Source of the DNA: Verrucomicrobiaceae bacterium
Lineage (GTDB): Bacteria; Verrucomicrobiota; Verrucomicrobiia; Verrucomicrobiales; Akkermansiaceae
NCBI GenBank assembly: GCA_027486655.1
Contig: JAIXOR010000034.1
Span: 1 to 64,000 of the forward strand
Direction of reading: 5' to 3'
DNA: 64,000 nt
Both the position numbers and the translations under genes were made by a program. This document shows positions 18,377 through 57,675 of the stretch, piece by piece; within the stretch, counting starts at the first letter, position 1, and each line of letters starts with the position of its first letter. The notes under the pieces are model-generated. The model was given only the letters and a program-made list of their open reading frames with translations, searched no databases and was not told the origin of the DNA.

Positions 18377-18503
18377 TTCTCCGGACGATACGGGGAATGA
18401 CTCAGGCTTGCCTCGTCAAATCACGCAACAATCCTTCGAATTTGCGTCCATCATGCAATGGAGCCCGTCTATCAGACGCTTTCCTGTGATAGCTTCTTAT
18501 GGG

Positions 18504-18544: not shown

Positions 18545-18557
18545 TTTTGGACCTCGC

Positions 18558-19853
18558 TCAGGCGATTGTGGGCAGTTCGTAGCCTTTTCGACGCGGCCGG
18601 TCCTGCCTGGTGGCGGCTTCGGCGTCGTTGGTGATTTTTTCGGCCTTGGGATCCCATTTCAGGGGCCTGCCGAGACGCTCCGCGATTCCGGCCAACTGGC
18701 AGATGGTGGCGGAACGGTGGCCCACAGTGGCCGGACAGATCGTGGGTTTGCGAGAAAGGATCGATTCAATGAAATTCTTGCGGTGATCCTTCGACTCATA
18801 GACCTGAACGTCGTTCGCTGTGAACTGGTGGCGGACGAGTTCCTTGGGAAGGGTGTCGATTTTTCCGCGGCTGACGAGCACTTCGCCCTTGGTGCCGATG
18901 AAACGGATCATATGTCCGTTGTCCGGCATGCGGTCCCGCCAGACGGTGATGCCGTCTGCATAGCGGTAGTGGTGGTGCTCGGCTCCTTCGAAGCCTTTGG
19001 GGATGAACTCGACGGGACCGGTCTCGTCACGGCCGAGGGCCCATTGGATGATATCAAAATGGTGAGCACCCCAGTCGCCGAACTTGCGGCTGCCGTAGTC
19101 CCAGTAGCAGCGCCAGCCGCCACCGTAGTTGCCGAGCACGCGATTCTCCGAGTAGTCGTAGAACGGAGTGGGGCCGAGCCAGCGATCGTAGTCGAACCCT
19201 GCGGGAACGGGGACGATGGTTTCCTTTGCGGGTGGCTGGGGAAACTCACCGAGCTTGCAGTAGATTTCCTTGATGTCGCCGATCATGCCGTTGCGCACGA
19301 GATTGGCAGCGATGCGGAAATAGATTTCCGAGCGCTGCTGGCTGCCGACCTGGACGATGCGGCCGTATTTTTTCTCCGCGGCGACCATGGCTTTGCCTTC
19401 CTCGATCGTGAGGGACATCGGTTTCTCCACATAGACGTCCTTGCCTGCCTTCATGGCGGCGATCGCGATGCCGACGTGCCAGTGGTCGGGAGTTGTGACG
19501 CAGACCGCATCGATGTCCGGATTCGAAAGGACCTCCTCGAAGCGTGAGGTGGCGAGCACCCCGTTGTGGCCTTTTTCCTTGAGGGTATCGAGCGCCTTCT
19601 TGAGTTGCCATTCCTTGACGTCGCAGACGGCGATGGGCTGCACGCCCGGCATGCTGGAAAAGGTTCTGAGGTGGCCGTCGGAAATCAGGCCCACGCCGAT
19701 GAAACCCATGCCGATGCGGGAGTTGGCGGCGTCCTTGTTGGCGTTTCCCAGCGTTTCGGCCCGGATGATTTGAGGCCCGGCGATGAGGGCTCCGGCGGTG
19801 CCGAGAGAGGACCTGAGGAAGTGACGGCGTGTGGTTTTTGATGTGGGGTTCAT
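18558..19853 (-). CDS. Gfo/Idh/MocA family oxidoreductase with Tat signal
   Basis: A 431-residue NAD(P)-dependent sugar-type oxidoreductase. The N-terminus carries a twin-arginine signal ([21 protein letters not shown]), so the folded enzyme, likely with bound cofactor, is exported to the periplasm. The Rossmann fold starts at [16 protein letters not shown], the family EKP motif is in [17 protein letters not shown], and the C-terminal domain holds [14 protein letters not shown], the usual substrate-side His/Asp segment. Such Tat-exported members are abundant in Verrucomicrobiota near glycosidases and probably oxidise released sugars or open glycosides by redox chemistry. It follows the GH16 gene by 76 bp. 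Confidence 0.9.
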
Positions 19854-32252: not shown

Positions 32253-33860
32253 TCAGGGTTTGCCCGCTTGATAGATGGCCTGGAGTTCGCCTTCGCTCAG
32301 CGCCCGGTTGATGATGGCGAGTTCATCGAGTCTTCCGTTGAAGTTCCGGTAAGCGTCGGGACTTCTTCTGGATTCCGCATTGAGGTCGCCGCTGTTCCAG
32401 TTGCCGAAGGTGTAGCTGTTGTGGATCACGGGGAGATGATCCTTGAATTCTCCCTGGCCGATCTGCGCGCCGTCCCGGTAGTGGCGGACGCTTCCGGTGG
32501 TGGAATCGTAGGTGGAGGCAAGGAAGATCCAGCGTCCGAGGTCGAGATCCGTCATGGCAGGCGCCCGGACCGGGCCTTCCCAGGAGTGGGGTTCTCCGGG
32601 GTTGCCTTTGCCATTGGTGATGGCGAGGCGGAGGTTGCCGTTTCCGTCGAGCATCCATGAGAGTGCCGATGTCCGGTAGGCATCCGGCATGAGAAGGATC
32701 TGATAGAGATTGGGCAGGCTGTCCACGCGGACCCAGGCGAGGAAGGTGGCGGCCTTGTGTGTTCCGGCCAGGCGGAAGAGCATGCGGTCTCCGCGTCCGC
32801 TGAATTCCAAGGCCCGTTTGCCGGGCCAGCGACCTTCCGTCCAGCCGGTGCCGACCAATGAGGCGTGAGAGGGGATGGCGGCGGAGGATGCGTGGTTTCT
32901 GACCGACCGTGCGGACGGATGGGCTTCTCCGAAATGATAGGCGAGCAGGGTGCCCGGATCGTTGGCGAGGGATTTGGATGCGGACAACCAGCGGGAGGCG
33001 GAAGCTTCGCGGTTTGCGGCGATGCGGCCGTCGAAATTGGCGACGGAGGGGAAGAGTGCGTCCGAGGCTGAGGTGGCTTTGGTGTTTCCACGTGAGTCCA
33101 CTGCGACGGCTTCTTCGTCGGTGAGCAGGACGGGGGATCCATTGGCGTGGATTTCCACTTCGCCTTGCATCACCTTGACGAGCGAGTCCCCTGCGGGCCG
33201 GACTTGCAGGCCGAAGATCGTTCCGAGATCCACTACCCGTGACGAGGGGGTGTGGATGCTGAATCCGCGGGCTGGCGGCGGGACGGTGGCTAACAGATTG
33301 CCGGAACGACACGCGACTTCCATTCCGGAGATGAGCGAAATTTCCGCAGGACCTTCTAACAGGATGCGCGCGCCACTTGAAAACTCAAGGGAGGCCATGC
33401 CCGAGGAGAGCTTGAGAGGGCCGGGGAGAAGCGAGCTTCCGGAGCGTGGGGATTCCCCCTGCCAAACGGCGTCGCTTTCCTCCTTGAGGAGGGCAACCGG
33501 TGCGGTTTCCGGGGCGGCGGGTGTATGGGGTTTCGTTCCGAGTGCGAGCCATGCGAGGAATCCGCAGAAAAGAAGCACTGCGGCGACCGCAAGCGAGTTG
33601 GCGGCTTGCTTGCGGCGGGGTGCGCGGTTCCGATGGGCAGGGAGGGGCGGCTTTGGTGCGGTTTCCAGCATGGCGACCATGTGATCGTCTCTCAGCCGGT
33701 TGATCAGGGCGCTTTCGTCCACCAGCAGCCGAGCCATGGTAGCGCGGTGGGCAGGGCTTTGGCGCAGAAGTTCATTGAGTCTGGCGCGTGCGGAGGCGTC
33801 GTTCCCGTCGCGAGCGGCGAGAAGCAGGTCCAGCAAGGTGGTTTCGGAATCCGGGCTCAT
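32253..33860 (-). CDS. FecR-domain anti-sigma-like membrane protein with C-terminal LamG/concanavalin domain
   Basis: A 535-residue single-pass membrane protein. Residues 1-85 form a cytoplasmic segment resembling sigma-binding regions of FecR partners. One transmembrane helix follows near 88-106 (LAVAAVLLFCGFLAWLAL). The periplasmic FecR domain spans about 150-260 (GARILLEGPAEISLISG...FSIHTPSSRVVDLGTIFGLQV...VKVMQGEVEI). A LamG-type glycan-binding-like domain covers 300-530 (TFLAWVRVDSLPNLYQILLM...NGRLDELAIINRALSEGELQAIY). The layout allows an outside signal, perhaps a polysaccharide bound by LamG, to control the sigma factor. The start overlaps the sigma gene by 4 bp (ATGA). Confidence 0.88.
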   Translation of the reverse strand: MSPDSETTLLDLLLAARDGNDASARARLNELLRQSPAHRATMARLLVDESALINRLRDDHMVAMLETAPKPPLPAHRNRAPRRKQAANSLAVAAVLLFCGFLAWLALGTKPHTPAAPETAPVALLKEESDAVWQGESPRSGSSLLPGPLKLSSGMASLEFSSGARILLEGPAEISLISGMEVACRSGNLLATVPPPARGFSIHTPSSRVVDLGTIFGLQVRPAGDSLVKVMQGEVEIHANGSPVLLTDEEAVAVDSRGNTKATSASDALFPSVANFDGRIAANREASASRWLSASKSLANDPGTLLAYHFGEAHPSARSVRNHASSAAIPSHASLVGTGWTEGRWPGKRALEFSGRGDRMLFRLAGTHKAATFLAWVRVDSLPNLYQILLMPDAYRTSALSWMLDGNGNLRLAITNGKGNPGEPHSWEGPVRAPAMTDLDLGRWIFLASTYDSTTGSVRHYRDGAQIGQGEFKDHLPVIHNSYTFGNWNSGDLNAESRRSPDAYRNFNGRLDELAIINRALSEGELQAIYQAGKP

Positions 33861-34390
33861 GCGGGGGCCTTGGAGAGTTGTTGCTGGATGCAGTCACCGA
33901 GCGAGCGGCGCAGGCGCAGCATGATCATTTTCATGGCGCTTTCTCCGCGCCGGGACTCGGCTGCGAGTTGTTTGAGGCTCTTGCCCTGGTGGTAGTGGGC
34001 ATCGAGCAGGCTGCGGTTTTCCTGAGAAAGTTTCTCGAGGCAGTTCCCGAGGGCGCGGCGGCGTTCTTGGAGTTCGCAGGCGAAGGATTCGGTTTCCTCT
34101 GCCATCGAATGGATGACGTCCGGATCGAAGACGAGGCGGTCGCGCGAGCGGTCGCGGAAGTGCGAGAGGATGGTGAAGCGGGCGACGGCGAAAGCCCAGG
34201 GGAGGAACTCGGTCTCTGGATTCCAATCGGCGGACTTGTGCCAGAGCTTGAGGTTGGTTTCCTGAAGGACCTCCCAGGCGTCCTCACGGCGGGCGAGGTT
34301 GGCGTGACAGAACGCCTCAAGCACCGGCTGGTGGCGGGTGAGCGCTTCGATGAACCGGGAGTCCGGTGGGTTTGGAGAACGATCCGTCAT
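33857..34390 (-). CDS. ECF-type RNA polymerase sigma factor (Planctomycetota/Verrucomicrobiota group)
   Basis: A 177-residue sigma-70 family protein. Region 2 is visible in HANLARREDAWEVLQETNLKLW and ETEFLPWAFAVARFTILSHFRDRSRDRL, and region 4 in LSQENRSLLDAHYHQGKSLKQLAAESRRGESAMKMIMLRLRRSL. Size and motifs fit ECF factors that pair with FecR/LamG proteins in these phyla. The gene is translationally coupled to the FecR gene and heads the run of genes down to 18558, so it probably directs their transcription. No autoregulatory promoter could be identified in the 100 bp upstream, which include a small CGGGA/TCCCG hairpin close to the ATG. Confidence 0.9.
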   Translation of the reverse strand: MTDRSPNPPDSRFIEALTRHQPVLEAFCHANLARREDAWEVLQETNLKLWHKSADWNPETEFLPWAFAVARFTILSHFRDRSRDRLVFDPDVIHSMAEETESFACELQERRRALGNCLEKLSQENRSLLDAHYHQGKSLKQLAAESRRGESAMKMIMLRLRRSLGDCIQQQLSKAPA

Positions 34391-34490: not shown

Positions 34491-37307
34491 TCACCGCTTG
34501 CGGCGACGCAGCAGGGTGATGAGGCCAAGACCGCCGATGAGGGCGGCACCGGGTTCCGGGACGGCCATGAGGGCCACGTCGTTGCCACCGGTGAAGAGTC
34601 CTGTGCCGGAGTTAGCGTTGTAGCTGATCTGCCAGGTGTAGCCGCCGAAAGTGGTGACGACGTCATTCTGCGCGAGGCCGGCGAAGGTGCCGGAAACGGC
34701 ATCCGCTCCATCGTTGAGGAGGATGAAGATGAGGTTGCCGTTCGCAGGTGAGAAGCCGCTGAAGCTGGTGGTGAGGATGCCGCCGAGGGTGATGGTGCCG
34801 AGGACGTTCACTTGATCGTGCTGGGTGCCTGCGGTGAGTCCGTTGACCTCGATGTTGAGGGTGCCGGCCTGGTTGTAGTTTCCATCCACGGTGAGTTGGC
34901 CGGGGCTGCTGCCCGGGTTGAGGGAGCCGCCGGAGAGGATGCTCAGGTCGCCGACGGTGCCGGAGCCGCTGAGTGACGCACCGGATTCCACGGTGGTGAG
35001 GCTGCTGGTGGAGATGTTGCCGCTGACGACCAGGTTTCCGGATTTGACGTTGGTGGCTCCGAGGTAGCCGTTGGAGTTGCTGGAAACGATGTAAGTGCCG
35101 GAACGGCCGCCGGTGGTGCCGAAGTCGATGCCGCCGTTGCCGGTGATGGCTCCGGAGAGTTCGAGCGAAACGGGGCTGGAGGTGACCACATCCTCACGGG
35201 TGTTGACGGTGAGGGTGCCGGCGGTGGAGACGGAGCCGGTAATGGCGGTGCTGAGCGAGGACTGGCCGTTGAGGCGATTGGTGAGGGTGGACGAGCCTTG
35301 GAACGCGATGGATTCCGAATTGAAGCTGACGCTGGTCTGGCTGAAGGGATCGAGCAGTAGAGTGCCGCCGTTCTGGATGGTCGTGGTGCCGGCCGCCGCG
35401 CCGCCGGCGGTGCTGCCCATCGAGTTGGGGTTGCGCAGGCTGAGGGTGGCACCGTTGCTGACGACGATATCGCCGGTGAAGCCGTTGCCGTAGGTGGCGT
35501 TGGCGGTGTTTTGTCCAAGGGCGACCACGCCGGGGCCGTTGATGGTGAGCTGGCCGGTTCCTGAGAGAGTGCCGCCGGAGCGGAAGGTGGCGGCCGAGTT
35601 GGTGACTTCAAGAACGCTGTTGGCCGTGAGGTTGAGAGCAAGGTTGTTCGAGGAAATCGTCGTGCTTCCGGTATAACTGAGCGTTCCACCTCCAAGGGTG
35701 ATGGTCTTGGCTGCGGCAAGGCTGCCGAGGTTTCCATTTCCGGTGTTGGTTTGGCTGGAGAAGCTGAGGACTCCGGAGTTCACGCTGACGCCTCCGGTGA
35801 ATGTGCTGCCGGTGTTGGAAAGTGTCTGGGTTCCGGATCCGTTCTTGATCAGGCTTCCTGCGCCGGAGAGGACGCCGGAGTAGCTGGTGTTCTCGTTGTT
35901 TCCACCGACTGAAAGGGCGATCGCGGCAGGAGAGCCCGCGTTGTTCTGCAGGGCGAGGTTGCTGGAGCCGGCGAGGCCTCCGACGGTGAAGGCATTTCCG
36001 CCGACGGTGCTGGAGAAGACCGCGGTGCCTCCACTGAGGGTCAGCGTGCTGTTCTGGATGGCGTTCTGGTTGCCGAGAAGGATGCTTCCTCCCTGGACGG
36101 TGGTGCTGCCGACGAAGGTGTTGGCACCGGCGATGGTCAGAACGGTGGTGTTTTGTTTGACGAGGCGCAGGTTGTTCTCGTTGGTTCCCGCTCCGCCGAG
36201 CACGACCGCCGTGGTGAGGGTGTCGTCAAGGCTGCGGTTGAGAGTGAGTACGGACATGCCTGAGGCACCGCCGACGATTTTGTTGCCGCTGGTGGAGCCA
36301 AACGCGACATCGCCGGTGAATGTGGCGGAGCCGGCGGTGGTTCCATCGGAGAGCCGCAGGGTTCCGCTGGTGGGGCCGGTGGCGTTTCCAAGGGTGAGGC
36401 CGACACCGGTCAGGGACCCGGCGACCTCCACGACACTTGATCGCACATCGGTGGTGCCGGTGGTGGTGAGGGTGGACTTGATGGTGATGGCGGTGGATGG
36501 CGTCGCGTTGCCTGCGATGATGCCTGCGCTGCCGATGCTCTGGACGTCCGAGGTGCTGTCACCGAGAACGAGCTTTCCAGTTGAGCCGAAACTGGCGCCA
36601 GAACCGAAGGTGATGCCCGATGCGCTTCCCCAGGTCTGGTTGCCGGCGATGGTCCAGGTGCCTGCCCATGACGTGTTGCCCTGCTGGATGGAGCTGTTGA
36701 GGGCGGTTCCGAGATTGGAGGTGATGCGGCCGTTGCCTGCGCCGCCGAGGCGAAGTTGGTAGTTCGCTCCCGGCGAGGCGGAGATGCTGCCATTGAGCTG
36801 GAGGTCGGTTGCGGCGGCTCCGTTGTTTGCCACGAGCTTGAGAATGGTTCCCACGGCTGTGTTGACCTGAATGTTGGAGTCGACGGTCGCAGTGCCGGTC
36901 AGCGCCGCATTGGTCTGGATCAGGCCGTTGGCATCTCCGCTGCCGGTTGCGCCGGTGAGGGAAATGGTGCCGCCGGTGAGCAGGATGCTGGCACCTTCCT
37001 GAAAGTTGAGGCCTTGGGCGATGCGGGTGCCACTGGCGGTGATGGTGAAACTGCCGGTCGCAGTGGTGTCTGCGGAGAAGACTGCGGTATTGGCGGTTCC
37101 CGGGTCAGCGGAGAGAGTTCCTGCACCGCCGGTGCTGTCGGTGTTCCAGAGAGTGTTCGTTCCATCCCATGCGCCCGATGGTGTGGCGGATCCCGGGCCG
37201 GCGCTGGTTCCATTCGTGTCCCAGAAGAGATCCGCGGCAGTGGCCGGGTTCAGGGTGATCAGAGTGGCTAATGCAAGCGTGGCCTGGAGCGAGGGGCGGG
37301 GTTTCAT
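34491..37307 (-). CDS. PEP-CTERM sorted protein with autotransporter-associated beta-strand repeats
   Basis: 938 residues, with the start placed at MKPRPSLQATLALATLITLNPATAADLFWD, which gives a normal signal peptide. The track's extra 33 residues run through the upstream region. The body is a long series of PATR units (such as GAGSLIKNGSGTQTLSNTGSTFTGGVSVNSG), expected to form a right-handed beta-helix. The C-terminus is a textbook PEP-CTERM anchor: VPEP, then GAALIGGLGLITLL, then RRRKR. Export would be followed by exosortase processing, although no exosortase gene is in the window. It has no catalytic domain, so a structural, adhesive or glycan-binding role is likely. It is separated from the neighbouring gene by a terminator and has a 28-bp box 72 bp upstream. 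Confidence 0.9.
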   Translation of the reverse strand: MKPRPSLQATLALATLITLNPATAADLFWDTNGTSAGPGSATPSGAWDGTNTLWNTDSTGGAGTLSADPGTANTAVFSADTTATGSFTITASGTRIAQGLNFQEGASILLTGGTISLTGATGSGDANGLIQTNAALTGTATVDSNIQVNTAVGTILKLVANNGAAATDLQLNGSISASPGANYQLRLGGAGNGRITSNLGTALNSSIQQGNTSWAGTWTIAGNQTWGSASGITFGSGASFGSTGKLVLGDSTSDVQSIGSAGIIAGNATPSTAITIKSTLTTTGTTDVRSSVVEVAGSLTGVGLTLGNATGPTSGTLRLSDGTTAGSATFTGDVAFGSTSGNKIVGGASGMSVLTLNRSLDDTLTTAVVLGGAGTNENNLRLVKQNTTVLTIAGANTFVGSTTVQGGSILLGNQNAIQNSTLTLSGGTAVFSSTVGGNAFTVGGLAGSSNLALQNNAGSPAAIALSVGGNNENTSYSGVLSGAGSLIKNGSGTQTLSNTGSTFTGGVSVNSGVLSFSSQTNTGNGNLGSLAAAKTITLGGGTLSYTGSTTISSNNLALNLTANSVLEVTNSAATFRSGGTLSGTGQLTINGPGVVALGQNTANATYGNGFTGDIVVSNGATLSLRNPNSMGSTAGGAAAGTTTIQNGGTLLLDPFSQTSVSFNSESIAFQGSSTLTNRLNGQSSLSTAITGSVSTAGTLTVNTREDVVTSSPVSLELSGAITGNGGIDFGTTGGRSGTYIVSSNSNGYLGATNVKSGNLVVSGNISTSSLTTVESGASLSGSGTVGDLSILSGGSLNPGSSPGQLTVDGNYNQAGTLNIEVNGLTAGTQHDQVNVLGTITLGGILTTSFSGFSPANGNLIFILLNDGADAVSGTFAGLAQNDVVTTFGGYTWQISYNANSGTGLFTGGNDVALMAVPEPGAALIGGLGLITLLRRRKR

Positions 37308-37378
37308 GAGTGAGTTTTCCAAAGGGCTTGTATGGAGCCTAATGTGCGGAAAGCCGCGTGTTCGTGAAATCCACGTTT

Positions 37379-37406
37379 GCGTATTTGTTGAGGACGATTG
37401 CGCCAA
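37379..37406 (-). promoter_or_regulatory. 28-bp box TTGGCGCAA-N11-AAATACGC upstream of the PEP-CTERM gene
   Basis: Read on the minus strand, TTGGCGCAA and AAATACGC are separated by 11 unrelated bases. The same two half-sites with identical spacing occur at 40770-40797, in front of the next PATR gene. The distance to the ATG is 72 bp and the box lies downstream of the terminator of the previous gene, as expected for a promoter or operator. The XylR/AraC-type regulator encoded at 40819-41958 is the obvious candidate binder, but this is inferred from proximity. Confidence 0.5.
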
Positions 37407-37420
37407 TGCGTCGATCCGGA

Positions 37421-37458
37421 AAATGAAAACGCCGGAAGGCCATGAGGCCTCCCGGCGT
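37421..37458 (-). terminator. Intrinsic terminator after the 1062-residue PATR gene
   Basis: On the minus strand, ACGCCGG-G-AGGCC and GGCCT-T-CCGGCGT pair around a TCAT loop. The stem is 12 bp plus one mismatch and is followed by TTTTCATTTT. It lies 25-62 bp after the stop codon at 37483, so the two neighbouring PATR genes are separate transcripts. Confidence 0.85.
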
Positions 37459-37482
37459 GATTGAGGAACCTGTTCCCGGAGA

Positions 37483-40400
37483 TCAATCCTCGTTCACCTT
37501 GAGGCGAACGAAGGTTTTGCCCGCGGCGGAAGGCAGGGTGTAGGTGACGTTGTTGCCGACGATGTTCACTTGGTTTGCGCCGGTGCCGGCGGCGGCATTG
37601 GTCCATGTGGTGAGATCGGGCGAGGTCTGGACCACGAATTGGTTCAGGTAGGTTCCGGTGTAGGAACCGCCTTTGGTCCAGGTGACGGTGTTGCCGACCA
37701 CTCCGGGATTGGCGGTGAATCCGGATCCGGACAGGCCCATGAAGTATTCGACGCCGTTCTCCACGCCGTCGTTGTCATGGTCTTGGGAAACGGTTTGTCC
37801 CGGGGCGTTCGCGGAGGCCCAGGTGGCGAATCCGGCCGGGCCGCTGGTCACGGTGAGGGTGCCGGTGCCGGTGAGGCTGGCATCGACGTTGGGTGCACCC
37901 GAGGAGGCGGATCCCCAAACACCGGCGGCTTTCTGAACGCCACCGATGTAGAGGGCTCCCACGGTATCCGTGCCTGCGAAGTTCAGGTCGAGCGTCGCTC
38001 CGCTTGCCGCAATGCTCACGGTGGAGGCGTTGTTGGACGAGTTCGTCGCGCCGAGCGAAAGAACGCCGCCGTTGACGGTGGTGTTGCCGGAATACTCGGG
38101 ATCTGCGAGGGTGTAGAGGGAGGCGGCCGCGCCCTGGGTTTCCACAGAGCCGGAACCGCTGAGGGCTCCGCTGAGGGTGACCGTTTGAGCGACCGTGCCT
38201 TGAACGATGGGAACCACGACCGACGGGGTAAGTCCGAGCTTGAGGATCGAGCCGACTCCGGTGGTGACGTTTCCGGTGAGCTCGAGCGACGAGATGTTCG
38301 GCGAGGTCGAGTTGATCGTGTTTGCGATGGTGCCGGAGAGTGCGACGGCTTTGGGCGAGGCGAGGCCGAGAACGCTTGAAGGATTGAGGGCAAGCGGGCC
38401 GGTCAGGACGTGCTGGATATCGCTGTCCTGGTCTTCGTTTTTGGTACGGATGAAACTCGCACCGCTGATGGTGATGGGTTCCGCGTCGAAGGTGACACCG
38501 GCGTTTTGGTTGAATGAAAACAGCTCGAGTTGACCATTGGTGAGGGTAGTGCCGCCGCTGGTTGCGCCGAGTGAGTCCGGATTCCGGATGTCCAGGGCTC
38601 CTGCGGTCACGTTGATGCTGCCGCTGAAAGTGTTGCCAAGGGTAGTGACGCTGTTTTTGCCGATGGACAGGATGCCGGATCCGGATTTTTCCAGATTGCC
38701 GCTGCCTGTGATGGGGGCTCCGAGGCGCAGGGTGACTGCGGCGGTGGGGGCGTTCACACCACCGGCGTTGTAAACTCCGGTGACTCTGAGGCCGGAGTTG
38801 CCGGAATTGAGGACGAGCGGGATCGTATCGGAGGTTTCCGCGCCGGAGGCGCTGTAGGTGTATTCCAAGGTGCCCCCTCCGAGTTGGACAGCGCGGGTGC
38901 TCGCGCTGCCGCCGATGCGGTTGAGGGCCGAGATGCTGAGGGTGCCGCCGTTGATGTTGAGGGCGCCGCTGAAAGAATTGGAGCCGGAAGCCTGGGCGAG
39001 AGTCAGCGTGCCGCTGCCGCTCTTGGTCAGGGAGCCGGAGCCGGTGATGGTGCCGCCACTGACCGTGTAGTTGTTAGAGTGATTGAAGACCATGTTCCCC
39101 GGGCTGACCGAAGTGCCTTGGATTTCAACCGTGAAGGAAGAGGCCGTATCGTTGAAAGTGACGGAGTCATTCGAGTAGAAGCGGTCGGCTCCGGAGTTGT
39201 CCCAGTTGTAAGTGGTTCCGAGATCCCAGAAGGTGGGGCTGGTGCCATCATTGCCCTTCCAAATCAGGGATGCGGCGTTGCCGGTGTAGGTGATGGTATT
39301 GGTGCCCTCACCTCCGATCGTGCCGCGGCCTCCGGCGACGAAGGCGGCGACGTCGGAACTGCTGAAGGTGCCGGCTGTCTTGGTGAGAACCGTGTAGGTG
39401 CTGCCGATAGCGGTGGCGGCCGTCGGATTGGCGACGATGGTCGCCCCCGTGGTGGTGACGCTGCCGGCCGTGAAGGAACCCGGGGTCGAGGGATCGAAGT
39501 TGAGGGTGCTGCTGCCGGTGTCGAAGGTGAGTGAGGAGGAGGTGGCTCCTTCGCTGCTGAGGGTGGCTCCTGCCTTCACTGTGATGGGCGAGGCGAGTGT
39601 CGCCGTGCTGGCGACGGCAAGGGTGCCTGCTTCCACCGTGGTGGCTCCGGTGTAGGTGGCGTTGCTCGAACGGATGATCAGAGAGCCGCTGCCCTTCTTG
39701 ATGATGGAGAGGTTGTTTTGGTCGGTGCCTGCGCCGCCGAGGGCGACATTGACGCCGATCTCCCCGCCGGTGAAGGAGATCGCTCCACCGGTGCCGTAGC
39801 CTGTGATGCTGGAGCCGGTGACGGTGCCGTTGAAGGTGCCGGCGGTGATGGTTCCACCGACTGCGAGGTTCATCACGTTGTTGAGCGTGATGTTCCGCCA
39901 GGTCTGATCATCGGCGGAGCTTTCCCCGAGGACCAGTCGTGCGGTGGCGGTTGGATTCAGGAAGCCCGAGCCGCTCGACGAGATGGTGATGTCCGTGCTG
40001 GCAAGTGAGGCCTGGTCGCCCGCTATGATCAGATCGCCTGCCCAAGCTCCGTTCGCGCTGCTGTTCTGCAGGGTGCCCATGCCGCTGATGGTGCCTGCGA
40101 TGCGGGTGTTGGAGGTGTTTACGTTGCCGCTGGTATTGTTGCCGTAGCGGAGGTTGTAGGAGGTGGCGGTGCTGGAGGGAGCCAGGGCGATGCCTCCATT
40201 GATGCTGAGGGTCGTGGTATCGGAGGTGGTCCGGTTGTTGTAGACCAGGAAAAGGTTTCCAAGCGGGGCGGCGGTGGTGACGGACTTGACGAGGACCGGC
40301 TCGTTGATCTGGACGTTGGGGGCCGCGCTGGTTGCCTGGATGCCGTATGAATTGCTGCCACTGCTGGTTCCACGGTAGGTGAGGGTGCCCGCTCCATCCG

Positions 40401-40671
40401 CGAGCGTGAAGGTGTTGGATAGGACCGTGCGGACGAACTCGACGGGCGTGTTGATGGTGGCGGTGCCCGAGGCGGTTCCAAAGGTGACGGTGGCAGGTCC
40501 CGTCAGGTCTGGAAGGGTATCCGCGTCCCAGTTCGCTGCGGTGTTGATGTTGGTGTCTGCTCCTCCACCTGCGTCCCAAGTGGTTCCAGCCTGGATCGAG
40601 GAGGCCGAGAATGTGATGAGCAGGAGCGTGCCGACGGAGTGACGGATGGAGAGGCGGGCTTTTGGTTTCAT
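37483..40671 (-). CDS. Secreted protein with autotransporter-associated beta-strand repeats
   Basis: 1062 residues with a signal peptide (SVGTLLLITFSASSIQAG). The mature part starts with the WDAGGGADTNINTAANWDADTLPD motif common to PATR proteins and contains many repeat units (SGSLIIRSSNATYTGATTVEAGTLAV, SGSLTKSGSGTLTLAQASGSNSFSGALNINGGTL). The C-terminal 130 residues (VSQDHDNDGVENGVEYFMG...VQTSPDLTTWTNAA...GKTFVRLKVNED) are the calcium-motif plus beta-domain module also seen in four other proteins here, in place of PEP-CTERM. No enzyme domain is evident. A surface or extracellular binding protein is inferred. Confidence 0.88.
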   Translation of the reverse strand: MKPKARLSIRHSVGTLLLITFSASSIQAGTTWDAGGGADTNINTAANWDADTLPDLTGPATVTFGTASGTATINTPVEFVRTVLSNTFTLADGAGTLTYRGTSSGSNSYGIQATSAAPNVQINEPVLVKSVTTAAPLGNLFLVYNNRTTSDTTTLSINGGIALAPSSTATSYNLRYGNNTSGNVNTSNTRIAGTISGMGTLQNSSANGAWAGDLIIAGDQASLASTDITISSSGSGFLNPTATARLVLGESSADDQTWRNITLNNVMNLAVGGTITAGTFNGTVTGSSITGYGTGGAISFTGGEIGVNVALGGAGTDQNNLSIIKKGSGSLIIRSSNATYTGATTVEAGTLAVASTATLASPITVKAGATLSSEGATSSSLTFDTGSSTLNFDPSTPGSFTAGSVTTTGATIVANPTAATAIGSTYTVLTKTAGTFSSSDVAAFVAGGRGTIGGEGTNTITYTGNAASLIWKGNDGTSPTFWDLGTTYNWDNSGADRFYSNDSVTFNDTASSFTVEIQGTSVSPGNMVFNHSNNYTVSGGTITGSGSLTKSGSGTLTLAQASGSNSFSGALNINGGTLSISALNRIGGSASTRAVQLGGGTLEYTYSASGAETSDTIPLVLNSGNSGLRVTGVYNAGGVNAPTAAVTLRLGAPITGSGNLEKSGSGILSIGKNSVTTLGNTFSGSINVTAGALDIRNPDSLGATSGGTTLTNGQLELFSFNQNAGVTFDAEPITISGASFIRTKNEDQDSDIQHVLTGPLALNPSSVLGLASPKAVALSGTIANTINSTSPNISSLELTGNVTTGVGSILKLGLTPSVVVPIVQGTVAQTVTLSGALSGSGSVETQGAAASLYTLADPEYSGNTTVNGGVLSLGATNSSNNASTVSIAASGATLDLNFAGTDTVGALYIGGVQKAAGVWGSASSGAPNVDASLTGTGTLTVTSGPAGFATWASANAPGQTVSQDHDNDGVENGVEYFMGLSGSGFTANPGVVGNTVTWTKGGSYTGTYLNQFVVQTSPDLTTWTNAAAGTGANQVNIVGNNVTYTLPSAAGKTFVRLKVNED

Positions 40672-40739
40672 GGGATGATGGTGGGTCTTTTGGAGGTGGC
40701 TGCGGGAGGGGATAGCCCTCCATTCAGGGTGGACTTTAT

Positions 40740-40755
40740 CCCCCGATGCCGGGGG
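40740..40755. repeat. GC-rich inverted repeat in the leader of the 1062-residue PATR gene
   Basis: CCCCC and GGGGG flank GATGCC, 69-84 bp upstream of the start codon. On the minus strand it reads CCCCCGGCATCGGGGGAT. Related GGGGGAT-containing inverted repeats precede the pectinase gene (43246-43263) and the GH106-like gene (60566-60597). It could be an operator or a 5'-UTR hairpin. Confidence 0.4.
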
Positions 40756-40769
40756 CGAAATGCCCTGGC

Positions 40770-40797
40770 GCGTATTTTATGTTCACTTTTGCGCCAA
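40770..40797 (-). promoter_or_regulatory. 28-bp box TTGGCGCAA-N11-AAATACGC upstream of the 1062-residue PATR gene
   Basis: This is the second copy of the two-part box described at 37379, with the same half-sites and the same 28-bp length. It lies 99 bp before the ATG and 22 bp after the stop of the XylR/AraC-type regulator gene. The surrounding bases extend it into an inverted repeat (TGGCGC...GCGCCA), which is absent from the other copy. Confidence 0.5.
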
Positions 40798-40818: not shown

Positions 40819-41958
40819 TTAGATCCGGCGCGCCCGGAACTGGGAACGATAGGTGCTGGGGGTCATCCCGGTTTCCTCATGAAACACGCGGCCCATGTAG
40901 TTGTAAGACGAGAACCCGCATTTTTCCGCAATCAGGGTGACGGGATCGTTGGTGCCTGCGAGCAGGAGCCGCGCTTCATTGACGCGGATCTGGCGGATTC
41001 GGTCGACCACGGAGATGCCGAAGGTTTGGCGGAATTTTCTTTCCAGCGAGCGTCTGGCCATGGGCACGGCATCGAGGATGTCCGGCACTCCGATGGGTTC
41101 GCGGAAGCGCGTTTGGATGAAGCGCATGGCGGCGGCGATTCCGGGATCGCCGATGGCGAGGGTGTCGGATGAGAGCTTGGCGACCACGCCTCCCGCGGTG
41201 ATGGCGTGGTGGCGTTTTTCCGGTTCGGCTCCGGCCATCATGCGGTCGAGTTCCGCGGCGGCGATGAGGCCGATTTGTTCCGATGCCATGCGGATGCCGG
41301 ACTGGGCGGGGTGGGAGGCCTCGCTTTGGAGTTCGTCGTAGTCGGCCCCGAGCACGGCGACGTCGTGGGGGACGGCGATGCCGGCATCCAGGCAGATGTC
41401 GATGACCAGTCGGCCGATGCGCGGGCCCCAGCAGAGGACTCCGGCGGGTTTGGGCAGGCCTCTCAGCCATTTGAGGATCTCGGCGGGGCTTTCCGTGTGG
41501 CTGCACGCGCGGCAGGTGTGGCCGCGGCTGGCGAGCTCCTTCACAAACGCCTCGTATTGCCCGTGAACGTAGGATTGGCCGAGGTTGCCAATGTATCCGA
41601 AGTGGGGGATGCCGCGTATTTTGAAATGGTCGGCAGCCATCCGGCAGACGGCCTCGCCGCTGGTGGTGACGCGGGTGAAGTCGGCGTCCGGGAGGCGAAT
41701 GGAGGAGACGTTGACGATGGGCACGCCGAGTTCCTTGAGCTGGCGTGCGAAGCCAGCGCTGGCAACGCGGGCGATGACGCCATCGCATTTCCGCCGTCTC
41801 GGGATTTCCGGGGCTTCGTCGGGTCCCTTGGGTTCGATGTGGATGTGCCAGGGGCCGTTCTGTTTGGCATGGGCGAGGATGCCGGCGACGACGCGCCGAC
41901 CCCACGAGGTGGCGGTTTCCACGAAAATCGAGACGTTGGGAATGCTGCGGCGATCCAC
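40819..41958 (-). CDS. XylR-like AraC-family regulator with LacI-type sugar-binding domain
   Basis: A 379-residue transcription factor. The track extends it to 42312, but that part overlaps the glycosidase gene and is not protein-like. A GTG at 41958 gives DRRSIPNVSIFVETATSWGRRVVAGI, the usual start of this family. Residues 8-265 form a periplasmic-binding-protein-like ligand domain (PHFGYIGNLGQSY, AVLGADYDELQSEASHPAQSGIRM). Residues 277-379 form the AraC double helix-turn-helix (RRSLERKFRQTFGISVVDRIRQ, IAEKCGFSSYNYMGRVFHEETGMTPSTYR). Homologues sense pentoses or other monosaccharides and activate catabolic genes. The stop codon TAA lies inside a TGTTAGA word. It follows the beta-propeller glycosidase gene by 121 bp. 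Confidence 0.9.
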   Translation of the reverse strand: MDRRSIPNVSIFVETATSWGRRVVAGILAHAKQNGPWHIHIEPKGPDEAPEIPRRRKCDGVIARVASAGFARQLKELGVPIVNVSSIRLPDADFTRVTTSGEAVCRMAADHFKIRGIPHFGYIGNLGQSYVHGQYEAFVKELASRGHTCRACSHTESPAEILKWLRGLPKPAGVLCWGPRIGRLVIDICLDAGIAVPHDVAVLGADYDELQSEASHPAQSGIRMASEQIGLIAAAELDRMMAGAEPEKRHHAITAGGVVAKLSSDTLAIGDPGIAAAMRFIQTRFREPIGVPDILDAVPMARRSLERKFRQTFGISVVDRIRQIRVNEARLLLAGTNDPVTLIAEKCGFSSYNYMGRVFHEETGMTPSTYRSQFRARRI

Positions 41959-42079: not shown

Positions 42080-43144
42080 TCAGCGGTCGGGCTCGGGGGC
42101 GCCGAGTGGGATTCCGACGTTGAAGCTTTCCTCCAGTTTTCCGGCTGGGGCGGCGGCGCAAAGGAGGATGGTGGGCCGGCCGTTCTCGAAGAACAATTGG
42201 GGCCGTTCGAGCTTGAGAAGCGCTTGTTTGGGGGCGTCTTTCCAGACAAGTTCGAGGGTGGAAACAAGCGGGTGCTTCGCAAGTTTCCAATCGATGCCAT
42301 CGGCCGATTCAAAGAGCGCGAGCGACGTGCCTTTGCCGGTGAAGTGTCCGCTGAAGTCCTTGACGATGGCCCAGTAGCGGTCTTCCCCGCGCCAGATGAA
42401 GGGGTCTTCCGCGGCGAAATGTTCCCCGGGTTTGGTGAAGACCGGGTTGGGGTGTTTCACAAAAGGTCCGGCCGGGGATTCGCTGGTGGCCACGACGTGG
42501 ACGACGGGACCTCCGAAGGGTTTTTTCTTTTTGTCCCCCACGGCCTTGTAAACCATCAGGTAGCCGCCTTCCGGTCGGCGTGTCACCGAGGGGTTGGCGA
42601 GGCAGAGCGCATCATGAAACCCGGGGGTGGGGGAGATGAGCGGTTGGTCCATCCGTTTCCATGGGCCGTTGGGGGTATCCGCCACGGCCACTCCGATGCG
42701 CTGGTTGTTGCGGTGCGTCCAGTTGAGGTCCTTGGAAGCCTTTCCGTCTCCGGTGTTTCCCATGTAGTAGAGGTAATAGCGGCCATCGAACTCCAGCACC
42801 GTCGGGTTGTGCGTGCACAAGCCATCCCAGTGCTCCGCACCGCGGGCGGGCAGCGCCACATCGACGAAACGGAATGGGCCTGAGGGGCTCTCGGCCACGG
42901 CATGGGCGACTTCGGAATGGGTGACCCAAGCGTAGTGCCCCAGCGATCGTGGCCAGCGGGAGTAAAACAAGTGATGTTTGCCATCCTTTCCTTTCACCAT
43001 GGTGCCGCACCAGACGATGAATCCCGGATCTTCAAATTTCGCGCTCGCCGGGATCGGGCGGATGATTCTCTGGAAGTCGAGGTCACCCAAGGCAAGGGTG
43101 TGGGATGCAATCACGGTCAGGGCGGTGGCTAGGATGGCGCGCAT
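42080..43144 (-). CDS. Secreted GH43/GH32-clan beta-propeller glycosidase
   Basis: 354 residues when started at MRAILATALTVIASHTLALGD, a clean signal peptide; the 29 extra residues in the track are upstream sequence. The body is a five-bladed propeller: FEDPGFIVWCGTMVKGKDGKHHLFYSRWP (first acidic blade), CTHNPTVLEFDGRYYLYYMGNTGDG, NQRIGVAVADTPNGPWKRMDQPLI, FAAEDPFIWRGEDRYWAIVKDF. This subgroup is regularly found in plant- and algal-glycan loci, and its exact specificity is unknown to me. It is divergently transcribed from the pectinase gene over a 233-bp region and lies directly upstream of the sugar-sensing regulator, so the two may be co-transcribed. Confidence 0.82.
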   Translation of the reverse strand: MRAILATALTVIASHTLALGDLDFQRIIRPIPASAKFEDPGFIVWCGTMVKGKDGKHHLFYSRWPRSLGHYAWVTHSEVAHAVAESPSGPFRFVDVALPARGAEHWDGLCTHNPTVLEFDGRYYLYYMGNTGDGKASKDLNWTHRNNQRIGVAVADTPNGPWKRMDQPLISPTPGFHDALCLANPSVTRRPEGGYLMVYKAVGDKKKKPFGGPVVHVVATSESPAGPFVKHPNPVFTKPGEHFAAEDPFIWRGEDRYWAIVKDFSGHFTGKGTSLALFESADGIDWKLAKHPLVSTLELVWKDAPKQALLKLERPQLFFENGRPTILLCAAAPAGKLEESFNVGIPLGAPEPDR

Positions 43145-43245: not shown

Positions 43246-43263
43246 ATCCCCCATGCGGGGGAT
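43246..43263. repeat. Perfect inverted repeat in the divergent region before the pectinase gene
   Basis: ATCCCCC-ATGC-GGGGGAT is a 7-bp perfect inverted repeat about 115 bp upstream of the 43378 start and about 100 bp from the divergent 43144 start. The 10-mer CGGGGGATGG that it includes recurs at 60573-60582 before the GH106-like gene. The rest of the 233-bp region holds an AT-rich patch (AAACTTTATTTTATGAG) suitable for a promoter, but no clear -35/-10 pair. Confidence 0.45.
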
Positions 43264-51064: not shown

Positions 51065-53212
51065 ATGCGCCTTCTCCGTTGGATTGCCTTGGCCCTGCTT
51101 GCCGCTCTGACGATGCCGTTGGATGCCGAGCCATTGACCCGGGTGGCCGAGATCCGCGGCCTTTCTCGCGAGGACGCCGCCAAGGCCATCCCCGTGAAGT
51201 TCGCCGGTGTGGTCACCTATGTGGGTTGGGAAAACTTCGTGGTGCATGACGGCGAAACCTCGATCTTCGCCGACTTCCGGTTTTCAAAAGCAAAGGGCCA
51301 CTGGCTCGATGAGATCCCGGATCTTTCGAAACTGCAGCCCGGAGATGGTGTCGAAGTCGAGGGTCTCAGCGATCCCGGAGGCTTTTCGCCCATGGTGCTG
51401 GTGACCAAGTTCCGCCGCATCGGCCGGCAGGTCGTTCCCGCTCCCCTCAGACCTTCCATGGAGCTCCTTCTATCAGGTTCCCAGGATACCCAATGGATCG
51501 AGGTCGAAGGCGTGGTCCGCCAACACCACCCTTCCGAGCCCGGCCCGGAGCGCCTCGCCCTCGTCGTGGCCGGTCACCGATGTCCCGTTATCTTGAGCAA
51601 CCGCACCGGCCTCCGGCCCGAGCAACTTGTCGACGCCCGCGTCCGGGTTCGCGGCGTGCTGCTCAATATCGCCAACCTCCGCTCCCAGGTCGCGGGACTC
51701 AAGATCCACAGCAACGGCCGGCAGGATATCGACATCCTCGCTCCTCCCTCCGCCGATCCCTTCCTCGCCCCGCAGGTCTCGCTCGACCGCCTCATTCCTT
51801 TCGATCCGCAGGCTGATTTCGGCCATCGCAGGGTCTCCTCCGGCGTTGTCACCTTCGTCGCACCCGGCCGTTTCTTCTATCTTCTGGATCGCGGCGCCTG
51901 CGTGCGGGTTGACAGCGTCGATGCCGTCGTCTCTCCCGGCGACAGGGTGGAGGTCTCCGGTTTCATCGATACCGATCGCGTGCTCGCCTCGTTCAGCGAA
52001 GCGCTCGTCCGCGTCATCGGGAAGGGGCCCGTTCCGCCACCCGCACCCGCCGATATTCCGGCAATTCTTGAGCCCAAGGTCCGCAGCTATGAAGAAATGG
52101 TGGCTGAACACGGATACACCGACGCCAACGGCCGCCTGGTTCGCCTTCAAGGGATCTTGCGGCGCGTTCTTCCGGCCGACAAAGAAGGCAACGCTGCCCT
52201 CGTGATCGAATCCGGCGAGCACCTTTTCCAAGCATTCCTTCCCATCATCAATGACACTTCGTCACGCAGACTCCAATCGTGGATCGAAGGTTCCACCATC
52301 GAACTGACCGGGGTCTCGGAATTGGAAATGGTCCGCATCGACACCCAACCCTGGTATGCCATTGCCGGATTCCACCTCTGGCTTTCTTCTCCCGACGATC
52401 TGCGAGTGATCGCCAGACCGCCATGGTGGACGCCGCAACGACTCGCCATCGTGCTGGCCGGTGTGTTGATGGTGCTTGGCCTCGTATTCGCCTGGGCTTA
52501 CGCGATGCGTCGCCAGGTCGCCCTTCGCAGTGGTCAACTCGCCCGTGAAATCGCCGCTCGCGAAGCCGCCACGCTGGAGTTTGACGCCATCCTCCGCGAA
52601 CGCCGACGGCTTGCCAACGATCTCCACGACACGCTGGAACAAGCTCTCACCGGCCTCGCTCTGCAACTTGAAATCACCGATCGAAGCAAAGCCTCCAACC
52701 CCGAACTCAGCGCCCGCCACCTCCACCTCGCCCAGCAGTTTCTCGAGCGCAGCCGCCGCGAAGTCCACCGCACGGTCTGGGACCTCCGCGCCCACGGGCT
52801 TGACGGGCGGGATGTCATTGACCTCCTCCACGAGCGCGCCACCGCCATGGTCCAGGGCTCGCCCGTCGCCATCTCCGTGGAACGTGATGGCTCTTCCTTG
52901 CCTCTTCCCGACCTCCTTGCCGGCAACCTTCTCATGCTCGCCCAGGAAGCCGTCACCAACGCCCTCAAACACGGCGCGCCCTCCCGCATCTCGCTGCGTC
53001 TGAAATCGCAGGATCAACACATCGAACTCGAAGTCCGCGATGACGGCCGGGGCTTCGACCCCGTCACCGCTGCAGGACAGCTTGAAGGACACTTCGGACT
53101 CCAGGGCATGCGCGAGCGTGCCAAGCGCCTCGGCGGCATTCTCGATGTTAGCTCTTCCCCGGGCCAGGGCACCTCCGTCAACATCCGCGTCCCGCTACCC
53201 ATTCAGCCATGA
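51065..53212 (+). CDS. Sensor histidine kinase (HisKA_3) with large extracytoplasmic OB-fold-like region
   Basis: 715 residues from MRLLRWIALALLAALTMPLDA; the ATG at 51038 overlaps the pectinase gene and would spoil the signal. Residues 25-445 are extracytoplasmic and appear to be several OB-fold-like units (such as SSGVVTFVAPGRFFYLLDRGACVRVDS...GDRVEVSGFID). A WWTPQRLAIVLAGVLMVLGLVFAW helix follows (455-482). The HisKA_3 box RRRLANDLHDTLEQALTGLALQLE carries His near 520, and the HATPase domain has QEAVTNALKHGAPSRISL and DDGRGFD. It is a NarL/LiaS-type kinase paired with the response regulator that overlaps it by 4 bp, and is paralogous to the kinase at 57676. The ligand may be a pectin fragment, given the neighbour; this is inferred. 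Confidence 0.92.
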   Translation: MRLLRWIALALLAALTMPLDAEPLTRVAEIRGLSREDAAKAIPVKFAGVVTYVGWENFVVHDGETSIFADFRFSKAKGHWLDEIPDLSKLQPGDGVEVEGLSDPGGFSPMVLVTKFRRIGRQVVPAPLRPSMELLLSGSQDTQWIEVEGVVRQHHPSEPGPERLALVVAGHRCPVILSNRTGLRPEQLVDARVRVRGVLLNIANLRSQVAGLKIHSNGRQDIDILAPPSADPFLAPQVSLDRLIPFDPQADFGHRRVSSGVVTFVAPGRFFYLLDRGACVRVDSVDAVVSPGDRVEVSGFIDTDRVLASFSEALVRVIGKGPVPPPAPADIPAILEPKVRSYEEMVAEHGYTDANGRLVRLQGILRRVLPADKEGNAALVIESGEHLFQAFLPIINDTSSRRLQSWIEGSTIELTGVSELEMVRIDTQPWYAIAGFHLWLSSPDDLRVIARPPWWTPQRLAIVLAGVLMVLGLVFAWAYAMRRQVALRSGQLAREIAAREAATLEFDAILRERRRLANDLHDTLEQALTGLALQLEITDRSKASNPELSARHLHLAQQFLERSRREVHRTVWDLRAHGLDGRDVIDLLHERATAMVQGSPVAISVERDGSSLPLPDLLAGNLLMLAQEAVTNALKHGAPSRISLRLKSQDQHIELEVRDDGRGFDPVTAAGQLEGHFGLQGMRERAKRLGGILDVSSSPGQGTSVNIRVPLPIQP

Positions 53213-53841
53213 AACCATCCCGCCGTATCCGCATCCTGATTGTTGACGACCACTCCATCGTCCGCATCGGGATGTCCGGACTGCTGGCGATGGAGAGTGA
53301 TTTGGAAGTCGTCGCCGAAGCCGAAGATCTTGAACAGGCTCTTGCCGCATTCACGCTCCACCGCCCCGACGTCACGCTCATGGATGTCAGGATGCCGGGT
53401 GGAAACGGGCTTGAGGCGCTCGCAAAGATCCGTGCTGTCGACCCGGGTGCACGCGTCGTCATGCTCTCGACCTTCGACCTCGAACAACCGATCACAGCCG
53501 CTCACGACGCCGGTGCCGCCGGCTATCTTCTCAAGTCGATCAAAGGTGCTGAACTCGCCGCCGCGATCCGCCGCGTCCACGCTGGCGAGTCGTGTTTTCC
53601 CGCTGCGTTGCACGGCCACCTCGCCGCCCGAGCGGGTTCCAAACCTCTCACCCCACGCGAGATCGAAACCCTTGATCTCCTCCGCCGGGGGCTGTCCAAC
53701 AAGGATATCGGCCAGATCCTCGCGATCTCTGAAAACACCGCGAAATTCCACGTCAAGGCCATCCTCGCCAAGCTTGAGGTCACCGACCGCGCGGAAGCCG
53801 TCGCCGCCGCCTATGAGCGCGGACTCCTGCAAGTGGACTGA
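53209..53841 (+). CDS. LuxR/NarL-family response regulator
   Basis: A 210-residue regulator with a receiver domain at 6-122 (acidic pair in IVDDHSIVRIG, phosphoacceptor Asp59 in TLMDVRMPGGNG, conserved Lys109 in GYLLKSIKG). The C-terminal LuxR helix-turn-helix spans 145-205 (LTPREIETLDLLRRGLSNKDIGQILAISENTAKFHVKAIL). All phosphorylation residues are present. It is translationally coupled to the upstream kinase (ATGA overlap). Targets are unknown; the adjacent pectinase and PATR genes are the natural candidates. Confidence 0.94.
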   Translation: MKPSRRIRILIVDDHSIVRIGMSGLLAMESDLEVVAEAEDLEQALAAFTLHRPDVTLMDVRMPGGNGLEALAKIRAVDPGARVVMLSTFDLEQPITAAHDAGAAGYLLKSIKGAELAAAIRRVHAGESCFPAALHGHLAARAGSKPLTPREIETLDLLRRGLSNKDIGQILAISENTAKFHVKAILAKLEVTDRAEAVAAAYERGLLQVD

Positions 53842-53997
53842 AGCCGTGTCCTACCCGGTTGGATAGTAGGCGGCGCGAAGGATTGCGCCCAAGCTCCGCA
53901 CCCATTGGTAGTGGAGGAATATCCGGATGGTCCGAAATCGTGGAACCCATTGCATCCGGCACTGCCGCTCGAAAACCCCAAGCAACCCGCATAACCC

Positions 53998-56900
53998 ATG
54001 AAACGCCGCTCCATCTCGATCTATCAGTTTCTCGGCATCATCGCCACCTGTTCCGCCACCGTCCATGCCGCATCGATTACCCAGACCGCCAACGACGTCT
54101 TTGGCACTCCGGCGCAGGCATCGTTCATCGACTCCGCCCGCTGGAGCAATCTTGCGGCACCTTCCGCCGGCAACACCTACTCCACCAACGGCTTCGTCTT
54201 CCGCACTCCGGCGGTGAACTCGGCCACCGTCACCTTCGCAGGCGATTCGTTGAGTGTCGAAACCCGCTCGACGGCAAGCGGCACCCCCGGTGCCACGGTC
54301 ATCACCAAGGGCACGGCCAACCAGACGATCAGCTTCCCCAACCTCATCATGAACGGCGGGATCTTCAGCCAGGGCGAGAACGGCTACACCCACACGCTCG
54401 CCGGCAACGTCACCGCCAACGCCACTTCCGGTTTCAGCATCACCGACTCCAGCACCCGTAACCTCTTCGTCTCCGCAAACGTCTCGGGAGCCGGACGCCT
54501 CCACGTCGGTTCGTTCGGCCAATACAATGCCAGCAATCCCGCCTACGTTCCCACCGCCTTCACCTCGACCTTCGCCGTGTCGGGAAACAACAGCTCGTTC
54601 AGCGGCGGTTGGACACTCGGCGGGGGCTATGACGCCCCGGTCTTCGGTGGCAGCGGCACTTACCGTCTCAACTTCAACGCCTCCGGCATCACCTTCCGCC
54701 TCGGCCATGCGAACGCCCTCGGCACCGGCACCCTCAGGCTTCACGCCGGAACCGTGAACCTCAACGGATTCAACGCGAGCGGACTCGCCGGCGTCGAACT
54801 CCCGGACAGTGCATCCGCCATAATCCGCACCGCAGGCAATACCCTGAGTGCCACCAACCTCACCCTCGGCTCCACCACCGGTGCCACCCTCAATCTTGAA
54901 ACCGCCGCCGCAGGCAACCCGGCCACGGCACCGATCCAGAGCACCAACTTCACTGTCAACGGCCCGTCCACCCTCGGCGTCCGCGGCACCGCCCTCGCCA
55001 CAGGCTCCTTCCCACTCATCGGTTACACGGGAAGCATCGGTGGCAGCGGCGGCTTCGGCGCCCTCTCGCTGGTTCTGCCTCCCGGTGTCTCCGGCTCCCT
55101 CAGTGACAATCCCGGCGTCTCCGTCAACGCGACCATCAGCAACATCGAGTTCATCCAATGGACCAACGGCGCGTCCACCGGAAATTGGAACATCAATACC
55201 GACGCCAACTGGCAGACCGCCGTCAGCCTCACCAGCAGCACCTATCAGCAAAACGCCGCAGGCGGCCACAGCGTGCTCTTCAACGAATCGGAAACCGCCC
55301 CCAGCCCGGTCGCGATCGCCATTCCCGCCGACGTCAGCCCCAACGCCATCACCGTCAACAACCCGACCAAGGACTACACCTTCTCCGGCCAGAACATCAC
55401 CGGCAGCGCCGCCTTCGTCAAAAACGGAGCCGCTACCGTCAACTTCGCCAACACCCTGCGCGTCACCGGCGGCAACACCATCAACCTCGGCAAGGTCATC
55501 CTCACCGGTGCGGTCTCCGGCACCACCACCACCATCGCCGCAGGCGGTACCCTCGAATACGCCCACACGACCAATCCCGGCCAACCCGCCCACACGTTCA
55601 GCGGCGGCGGCTCGATCATCAAGAGAGGCGCAGGCACCCTCACCTTCAACTCAGGAAACAGCACCATCGCTCTCGCTGACGGTGGCTTGATCGATGTCCA
55701 GGGCGGCAAGATCCAGTTCGGAAACTTCGACGCCCAAGGCTGCTCCGCCACCGCCAACCAATCCGACATGAACATCGCCAGCGGCGCGATCTTCGATGCC
55801 TATGCCGGAACCGTGGTCGTCGATGGACTCACCGGCAGCGGCACCTATCAGGGCGGCTACTTCGGACCGCGCTCGCTCACCGTTGGCATCAATGGCGCGA
55901 GCAGCACCTTCTCCGGCACCATCAAGAGCAACGGGGTCGACGGCAATTCGCAGGTCCAGCTGATCAAGCGCGGCAACGGCACCCTCACCCTCACCGGCAC
56001 CGTCAACGCCCGCGGCGCCTACGGCGGTAGCTCGGTCGAAGTCCGCGGCGGCACCCTGCTGTCCCCCAGCACCCTCAACCTGAGTCCCACCGATCCGCTC
56101 TCGATAACCGGCTACACCGGCGGCCGCGTCCACGTCGGACCGGCCAATACCGACGTCGCCGTCCTCAACCAGACCGCAGGCACCGTTACCGCCAACACCC
56201 TGTCGATCGGTGAATCCGGCCAAGCCACCTACGACATCTCCGGCGGCGCGATCAACGCCACCCAAATCGAACTCGCCTACACCGGCGGAGCTCTCAACCC
56301 ACCCGCCACGCTCAACGTCAGCGGCAGTGCGCAGGTCAACCTCAACAGCAACGGCAGCATCGTGATGGGCCAGTTCTTCGGCCGCTCGGTGACGGTCAAC
56401 CAGAGCGGTGGCCAGGTCGTCCAGTTCAGCGACAACGCCACCACCCGCGGCGGCACCGGCTCGCTGAGGTTCAACAGCGGCAACCAGAATCTCACTTGGA
56501 ACCTCTCCGGCGGCACGCTGTCCCTCGCCGGCATCAGCTGGCTGCCCTCCGGCTCCGGCGCGGGCGGCGGCAACGGCGTCCTCAACCTCAACGGCGGTGT
56601 CCTCCAGATCACCAACGCCGCCTTTGCCGCTCCCACAGGAGATGCCAACGGCAAGCCGAAGGTCGCCGCCAAGGTGCTTGGCGACGAGTTCACGTCTGAA
56701 AGCGGCGCGATCATCGATCCCTACGGCCTCGCCATCACGTTCGCCGCTCCCATCCTCCACGGACCGGTCGGCACCTTCGACGGCGGCTTGAAGATCGCGA
56801 CCTCCATCCCCGGTGGATCGCTCACCTTGACCGGCACCAACACCTATACCGGAAACACGGTGATCCCCGCCAACAACTCGCTGACCCTAGCCGCGAGCTC

Positions 56901-57600: not shown

Positions 57601-57675
57601 TCGATCGACAAGCCGCGCGCCGCTTGGCGGAAATCCGGGCTTTCTTCCCTACCTCATGCTCCCCAATCTTGAGGC

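Follow-up and report, generated by a model that had tools for sequence, protein, structure and literature searches.

A candidate operator of a XylR/AraC-type regulator upstream of two PATR genes, one encoding a PEP-CTERM-like protein, in a Verrucomicrobiaceae genome

AraC-family dimers use direct repeats two helical turns apart. Two direct repeats are the reported binding site of E. coli XylR and of Vibrio XylRA (PMC12125979). A cis-regulatory site of PEP-CTERM genes was found by its authors in Proteobacteria only, with further motifs expected elsewhere (PMC1569441), and our literature search yielded no paper that dealt directly with XylR-type regulation in Verrucomicrobiota. Here we analysed a 64,000-nucleotide stretch of a Verrucomicrobiaceae genome (the window), in which two PATR genes next to a XylR-type regulator gene are each preceded by a copy of the same box. 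The PATR products are large repeat proteins destined for export. We consider it probable (roughly 0.8) that these boxes, A and B, are the operator of the adjacent regulator (40819-41958), each with two AraC-family half-sites, through which the regulator would activate the PATR genes.

Two boxes beside a XylR-type regulator gene

The features of the locus, all on the minus strand, are as follows.

32253..33860, minus strand: FecR/LamG protein (Pfam), the probable partner of the ECF factor
33857..34390, minus strand: ECF sigma factor (Sig-70_gvs1; TIGR02989), downstream
34491..37307, minus strand: PATR gene behind box A, 938 aa, with the PEP-CTERM-like C-terminus VPEPGAALIGGLGLITLLRRRKR (PF12951, TIGR02601, sequence)
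37366..37370, minus strand: ATTTC, candidate weak -35 region 8 bp downstream of box A, at the same spacing in both promoters
37379..37406, minus strand: box A, TTGGCGCAATCGTCCTCAACAAATACGC, with GGCGCAA and TACGCAA as half-sites at 21-bp spacing (exact match; core common to XylR-clade sites)
37429..37458, minus strand: strong intrinsic-terminator-like hairpin that separates the PATR genes
37483..40671, minus strand: PATR gene behind box B, 1062 aa (PF12951, TIGR02601)
40757..40761, minus strand: ATTTC, candidate weak -35 region 8 bp downstream of box B, at the same spacing in both promoters
40770..40797, minus strand: box B, TTGGCGCAAAAGTGAACATAAAATACGC, with GGCGCAA and TACGCGC as half-sites at 21-bp spacing (exact match; core common to XylR-clade sites)
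40819..41958, minus strand: XylR-type regulator, Peripla_BP_3 and AraC HTH_18, about 379 aa (Pfam, E. coli XylR match, tree, own gene caller)
42080..43144, minus strand: GH43/GH32-like glycosidase, upstream of the regulator (Pfam)

The first-pass annotation had described two 28-bp copies in the same orientation and with identical spacing, 72 and 99 bp before start codons, and the sequence agrees exactly. The pattern TTGGCGCAA-N11-AAATACGC has exactly two copies (37379-37406 and 40770-40797), both on the minus strand and both with a spacer of 11 bp; box A lies 72 bp from the start of the PATR/PEP-CTERM gene (34491..37307) and box B 99 bp from the start of the 1062-aa PATR gene. The coordinates also bear out the statement that the sugar-sensing regulator gene ends 22 bp from the second copy, this being the distance of its stop codon from box B. 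Both copies are exact, but 28 bp understates their extent: the match continues as far as the ATTTC 8 bp downstream. The anatomy of the boxes is solid, and binding, ligand and sign of regulation are predictions. Box A sits just past the terminator-like hairpin (37458-37429) and so probably opens a separate transcription unit. No good sigma-70 promoter was found, and an Rfam search of the locus returned no RNA family. A sigma-54 PEP-CTERM site of the Prs system was considered as well and rejected, as direct reading of both boxes showed that the GG-N10-GC element is absent.

The regulator carries a PF13377 sensor domain and a C-terminal AraC HTH (PF12833), both above the Pfam cut-off, and matches the E. 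coli XylR structures 4fe4 and 4fe7 over nearly the full length (4fe7, E=6e-30). Its longest open frame starts at 42312, and the start at 41958 is that of our own gene caller. Among its neighbours are GH43, GH29, GH16, GH106, pectate-lyase-like and PATR genes as well as an ECF/FecR cassette. In this cassette (32253-34390), which lies within the PATR array, the gene for an ECF sigma factor (Rhodopirellula/Verrucomicrobium family) stands beside that of its probable FecR-LamG partner; a XylR paralogue on contig C29 is followed by a similar cassette. Two pairs of histidine kinase and LuxR-type response regulator (51065-53841 and 57718-60545) each adjoin PATR genes, an arrangement similar to that of kinase/response-regulator pairs beside PATR genes in the relative G018.

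Within the window, boxes A and B were the only matches with up to three mismatches (0.08 expected from shuffles). A genome-wide search had been set beforehand as a refuting test; many non-promoter matches were not seen, and with up to two mismatches the whole 5.33-Mb genome held boxes A and B only. At three mismatches there were ten more matches compared with six for the reversed control, and one of the ten (C34:34873) is a real relative of the boxes. In 99 relatives, matches to the 28-bp pattern at two mismatches showed a modest and uninformative excess over the reversed control. In the whole collection the exact pattern occurred in 63 stretches scattered over unrelated phyla, and the DNA retrieved for them contained no XylR or ECF homologue.

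In an ungapped alignment the two PATR promoters agree at 21 of the 28 box positions; extended to the downstream GNGATTTCNC, the alignment has 29 identities in 43. Of 12,183 random pairs of upstream regions drawn from the genome, 17 (about 0.14%) reached at least 21/28 and 5 at least 29/43. Taken alone, the pair of boxes is significant but not overwhelming, and its function is not settled by the pair alone. That the similarity arose by chance, or is a functionless remnant of promoter duplication, might be argued from this 0.14% and from the many pairs that each window offers; we nevertheless consider it very improbable, given that the boxes are unique in the genome, that their spacing is conserved with other XylR loci and that such sites are associated with one regulator clade. 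The decisive evidence is the recurrence of the box at related regulators, above the similarity of the pair itself.

Recurrence of the site at related regulators

The core of the boxes, GCGCAA-N14-TRCGC, consists of two half-sites 21 bp apart and recurs in intergenic DNA, with identical spacing, at the XylR gene on C29, which a genome search identified as the closest paralogue of the window regulator (39%). Pattern searches covered the whole genome, and GCGCAA-N11-DRRTRCGC gave six matches (boxes A and B, C29:37635, C29:41637, C34:34873 and one in a coding region), a descriptive count and no test, as the pattern was derived from these same sites. C29:37635 precedes a PATR/PEP-CTERM gene and C29:41637 lies between the XylR paralogue gene and its divergent MFS gene. 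An all-against-all scan of upstream regions linked the PATR/PEP-CTERM gene of C29 to C34, both with GCGCAA and TGCGC at the exact spacing of the window. Such local scans covered 1.54 of the 5.33 Mb, weighted to PATR contigs. In this 1.54 Mb, a matrix trained on nine sites, none of them from the window, gave 14 matches of at least 14 bits, three being training sites, and none of at least 14 on the reversed sequence. One match, in the window, is nearer to the canonical TGCGCA type than boxes A and B:

18419..18451, minus strand: ATGGACGCAAATTCGAAGGATTGTTGCGTGATT, a canonical-type site that precedes an alpha-L-fucosidase gene (16796-18139) by 280 bp; matrix score 24.7

Another strong intergenic site, TTTTGCGCAATCCCGCAGATACGATGCGTGATT, was seen at G000:C76:46296-46328 (locus L247, 6296-6328), distant from any XylR gene found.

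Other species serve as an independent check. At homologous XylR loci of six relatives (G018, G020, G019, G012, G002 and G024) the site was intergenic and mostly in the XylR/MFS promoter, in a search that allowed variants of orientation and half-sites. The unsymmetrical pattern GCGCAA-N11-DRRTRCGC gave mostly coding or chance matches in relatives. Four sites were found in G018, one preceding a PATR gene, and one in G021, likewise preceding a PATR gene; the site of the first XylR gene in G018 lies just past the stop codon, as at the window regulator. These loci bear on an alternative in which the downstream ECF sigma factor (33857-34390) would use the box as its -35/-10 promoter, with GGCGC and TACGC 16 bp apart. 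Such spacing is ECF-like, and an ECF/FecR cassette shares the gene array both here and beside the XylR paralogue on C29. We consider this reading quite unlikely, however: the operator-bearing fragments of the relatives had no ECF gene that we could find, several relatives carry the operator at the promoter of the XylR gene itself, no box within three mismatches precedes the ECF gene 33857-34390, and the half-sites repeat at 21 bp in the fashion of the AraC family.

In a tree of 51 XylR-like proteins the window regulator was sister (100/99) to a clade of 11 members. The operator was present in 9 of the 11 clade rows and in 1 of 39 elsewhere (Fisher 2e-7, kinship ignored). Clade members G033 and G030:C220 had no such site; G033 and the window regulator have long branches. 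No close orthologue of the window regulator was available for footprinting, the best being 40%. A reader of the box other than the adjacent regulator, such as a paralogous XylR or one of the LuxR-type response regulators of the neighbouring kinase pairs (51065-60545), is conceivable in view of six other XylR-like matches in the genome and of the frequent position of PATR genes next to kinase/response-regulator pairs. This seems unlikely to us, since the GGCGCAA/TACGC variant was found beside the window regulator only, the tested XylR paralogues outside the clade had no such site within 3 kb, and boxes near the kinase pairs look different.

The proposal of the first-pass annotation, that both genes have an operator in common which the neighbouring XylR/AraC-type regulator reads, gains support from this sequence comparison, as architecture and spacing recur at a XylR paralogue and in six relatives. 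Such sites stand at the promoter of the regulator itself and before PATR genes, and their presence tracks the regulator clade. That the box is the operator of this clade is well supported, and the adjacent regulator is its likely reader.

Half-site geometry and the variant of the window

All sites of the clade have half-sites 21 bp apart. Canonical sites cannot separate direct from inverted repeats, because TGCGCA is its own reverse complement. In G005, of a related clade, the non-palindromic TGACGCAAA forms direct repeats at 21-bp spacing in two places, of which the first lies behind the XylR gene and the second ahead of a gene of 1152 aa; the direct-repeat reading is clear in G005, partial in box A and weaker in box B. 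Contig C727 of G020 carries two copies of CCGCAAAAGTGCAGGAAANATCCGC-like sites (CCGCAA variant), the first following the XylR gene and the second ahead of a PEP-CTERM-like gene, which is the anatomy of the window.

Box A and box B each agree with the clade core at only 10 of 12 positions, a fit equalled by 29 of 200,000 shuffled two-block boxes. Both deviate in the same two ways: G replaces the T that precedes the first half-site, and A replaces a G of the second. With the full matrix, built without window sites, box B scored 11.5 and box A 0.5, so that box A was not singled out; the assignment therefore rests on half-site core, spacing, uniqueness and neighbourhood. Apparently the boxes are a diverged, paralogue-specific variant of the clade operator, with a diverged interior. 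Recognition helix 1 of the window regulator is similar to that of the clade (RRxLE), and helix 2 reads SSYNYM versus SSPEYM in the clade. A paralogue-specific change of specificity would be the simplest reading of the variant.

For the proposed mechanism, activation and ligand are assumed by analogy with the family. The LacI/GalR-like domain would sense a sugar freed from polysaccharide by the glycosidases of the locus. The AraC-type domains would then fill both half-sites, GGCGCAA and TACGC(A/G), which at 21 bp are two helical turns apart just upstream of both PATR promoters and adjoin the candidate weak -35 region (ATTTC), and the sugar-bound regulator would switch on the exported PATR/PEP-CTERM proteins.

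Other PATR promoter boxes and comparison with described systems

Further PATR clusters with shared promoter boxes of their own were seen in G000 on C1 (L119-L122), C14 (L114-L118), C17 (L123-L128) and C34 (L095-L096). On C1, CCCGCACATTTTAACGGGTAGG stands before about eight genes, and it occurs twice in the relative G018; TTTGCCTCTGGAGGGGCAAA is a box of PATR clusters on C1, C17 and C14, CATCCCTAGTTTWAGGGACATGACG on C14 and C17, and AACCCCTCCCGCGRGGGATGG on C34. Within the window, the palindrome-like ATCCCCCATGCGGGGGAT and a copy with two mismatches (43246-43263 and 60563-60580) lie upstream of two PATR genes, with 0.09 matches expected at up to three mismatches. The perfect palindrome CCTGATGCGGCCGCATCAGG, or a near copy, is common to three upstream regions (G000:C73 near 17404-18705 and upstream of C2:185620; loci L253 and L112). 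When 609 upstream regions, taken from the same 1.54 Mb with its emphasis on PATR contigs, were compared all against all, 15 of 113 same-contig PATR pairs reached 21/28, well above the background of about 21 per 10,000 unrelated pairs; the 15/113 is descriptive, as related genes and tandem duplication contribute.

We tentatively suggest that many giant PATR/PEP-CTERM gene clusters of this lineage might have a private box and a private regulator, and that XylR operators might form a graded series (TGCGCA, GGCGCA/TACGC, CCGCA, TGACGCA) diverged together with the recognition helices. If this is true, private boxes would let the cell vary its surface proteins with the polysaccharide. The diverged regulator/operator pairs would also form a natural series in which to study the change of specificity after duplication.

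The regulation predicted here is of a known kind, XylR/AraC-type; the targets and the operator sequence are new. E. coli XylR and Vibrio XylRA have the same domain order as the window regulator, a LacI/GalR-type sensor followed by an AraC-type DNA-binding domain, and their operator, two direct repeats ahead of genes for sugar utilisation (PMC12125979), is like the one predicted here. The window regulator is however distant from them (E=6e-30 against the sequence of the E. coli structure), its half-sites are CGCAA-type and not AT-rich, and its predicted targets are PATR/PEP-CTERM export genes, the expression of which would thereby be tied to sugar sensing. Tandem operators of the AraC family such as araI1-I2 also have half-sites 21 bp apart that abut the promoter, although half-site sequence and sensor domain differ from those of the window system. 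The proteobacterial PEP-CTERM site (PrsK/PrsR, sigma-54) is likewise a DNA box upstream of PEP-CTERM genes, but has a sigma-54 -24/-12 element that is absent here (PMC1569441). In the description of the PEP-CTERM system, such motifs were expected outside Proteobacteria but had not been found there (PMC1569441), and the boxes and the adjacent regulator offer a concrete candidate regulator-operator pair for PATR/PEP-CTERM export genes outside this phylum.
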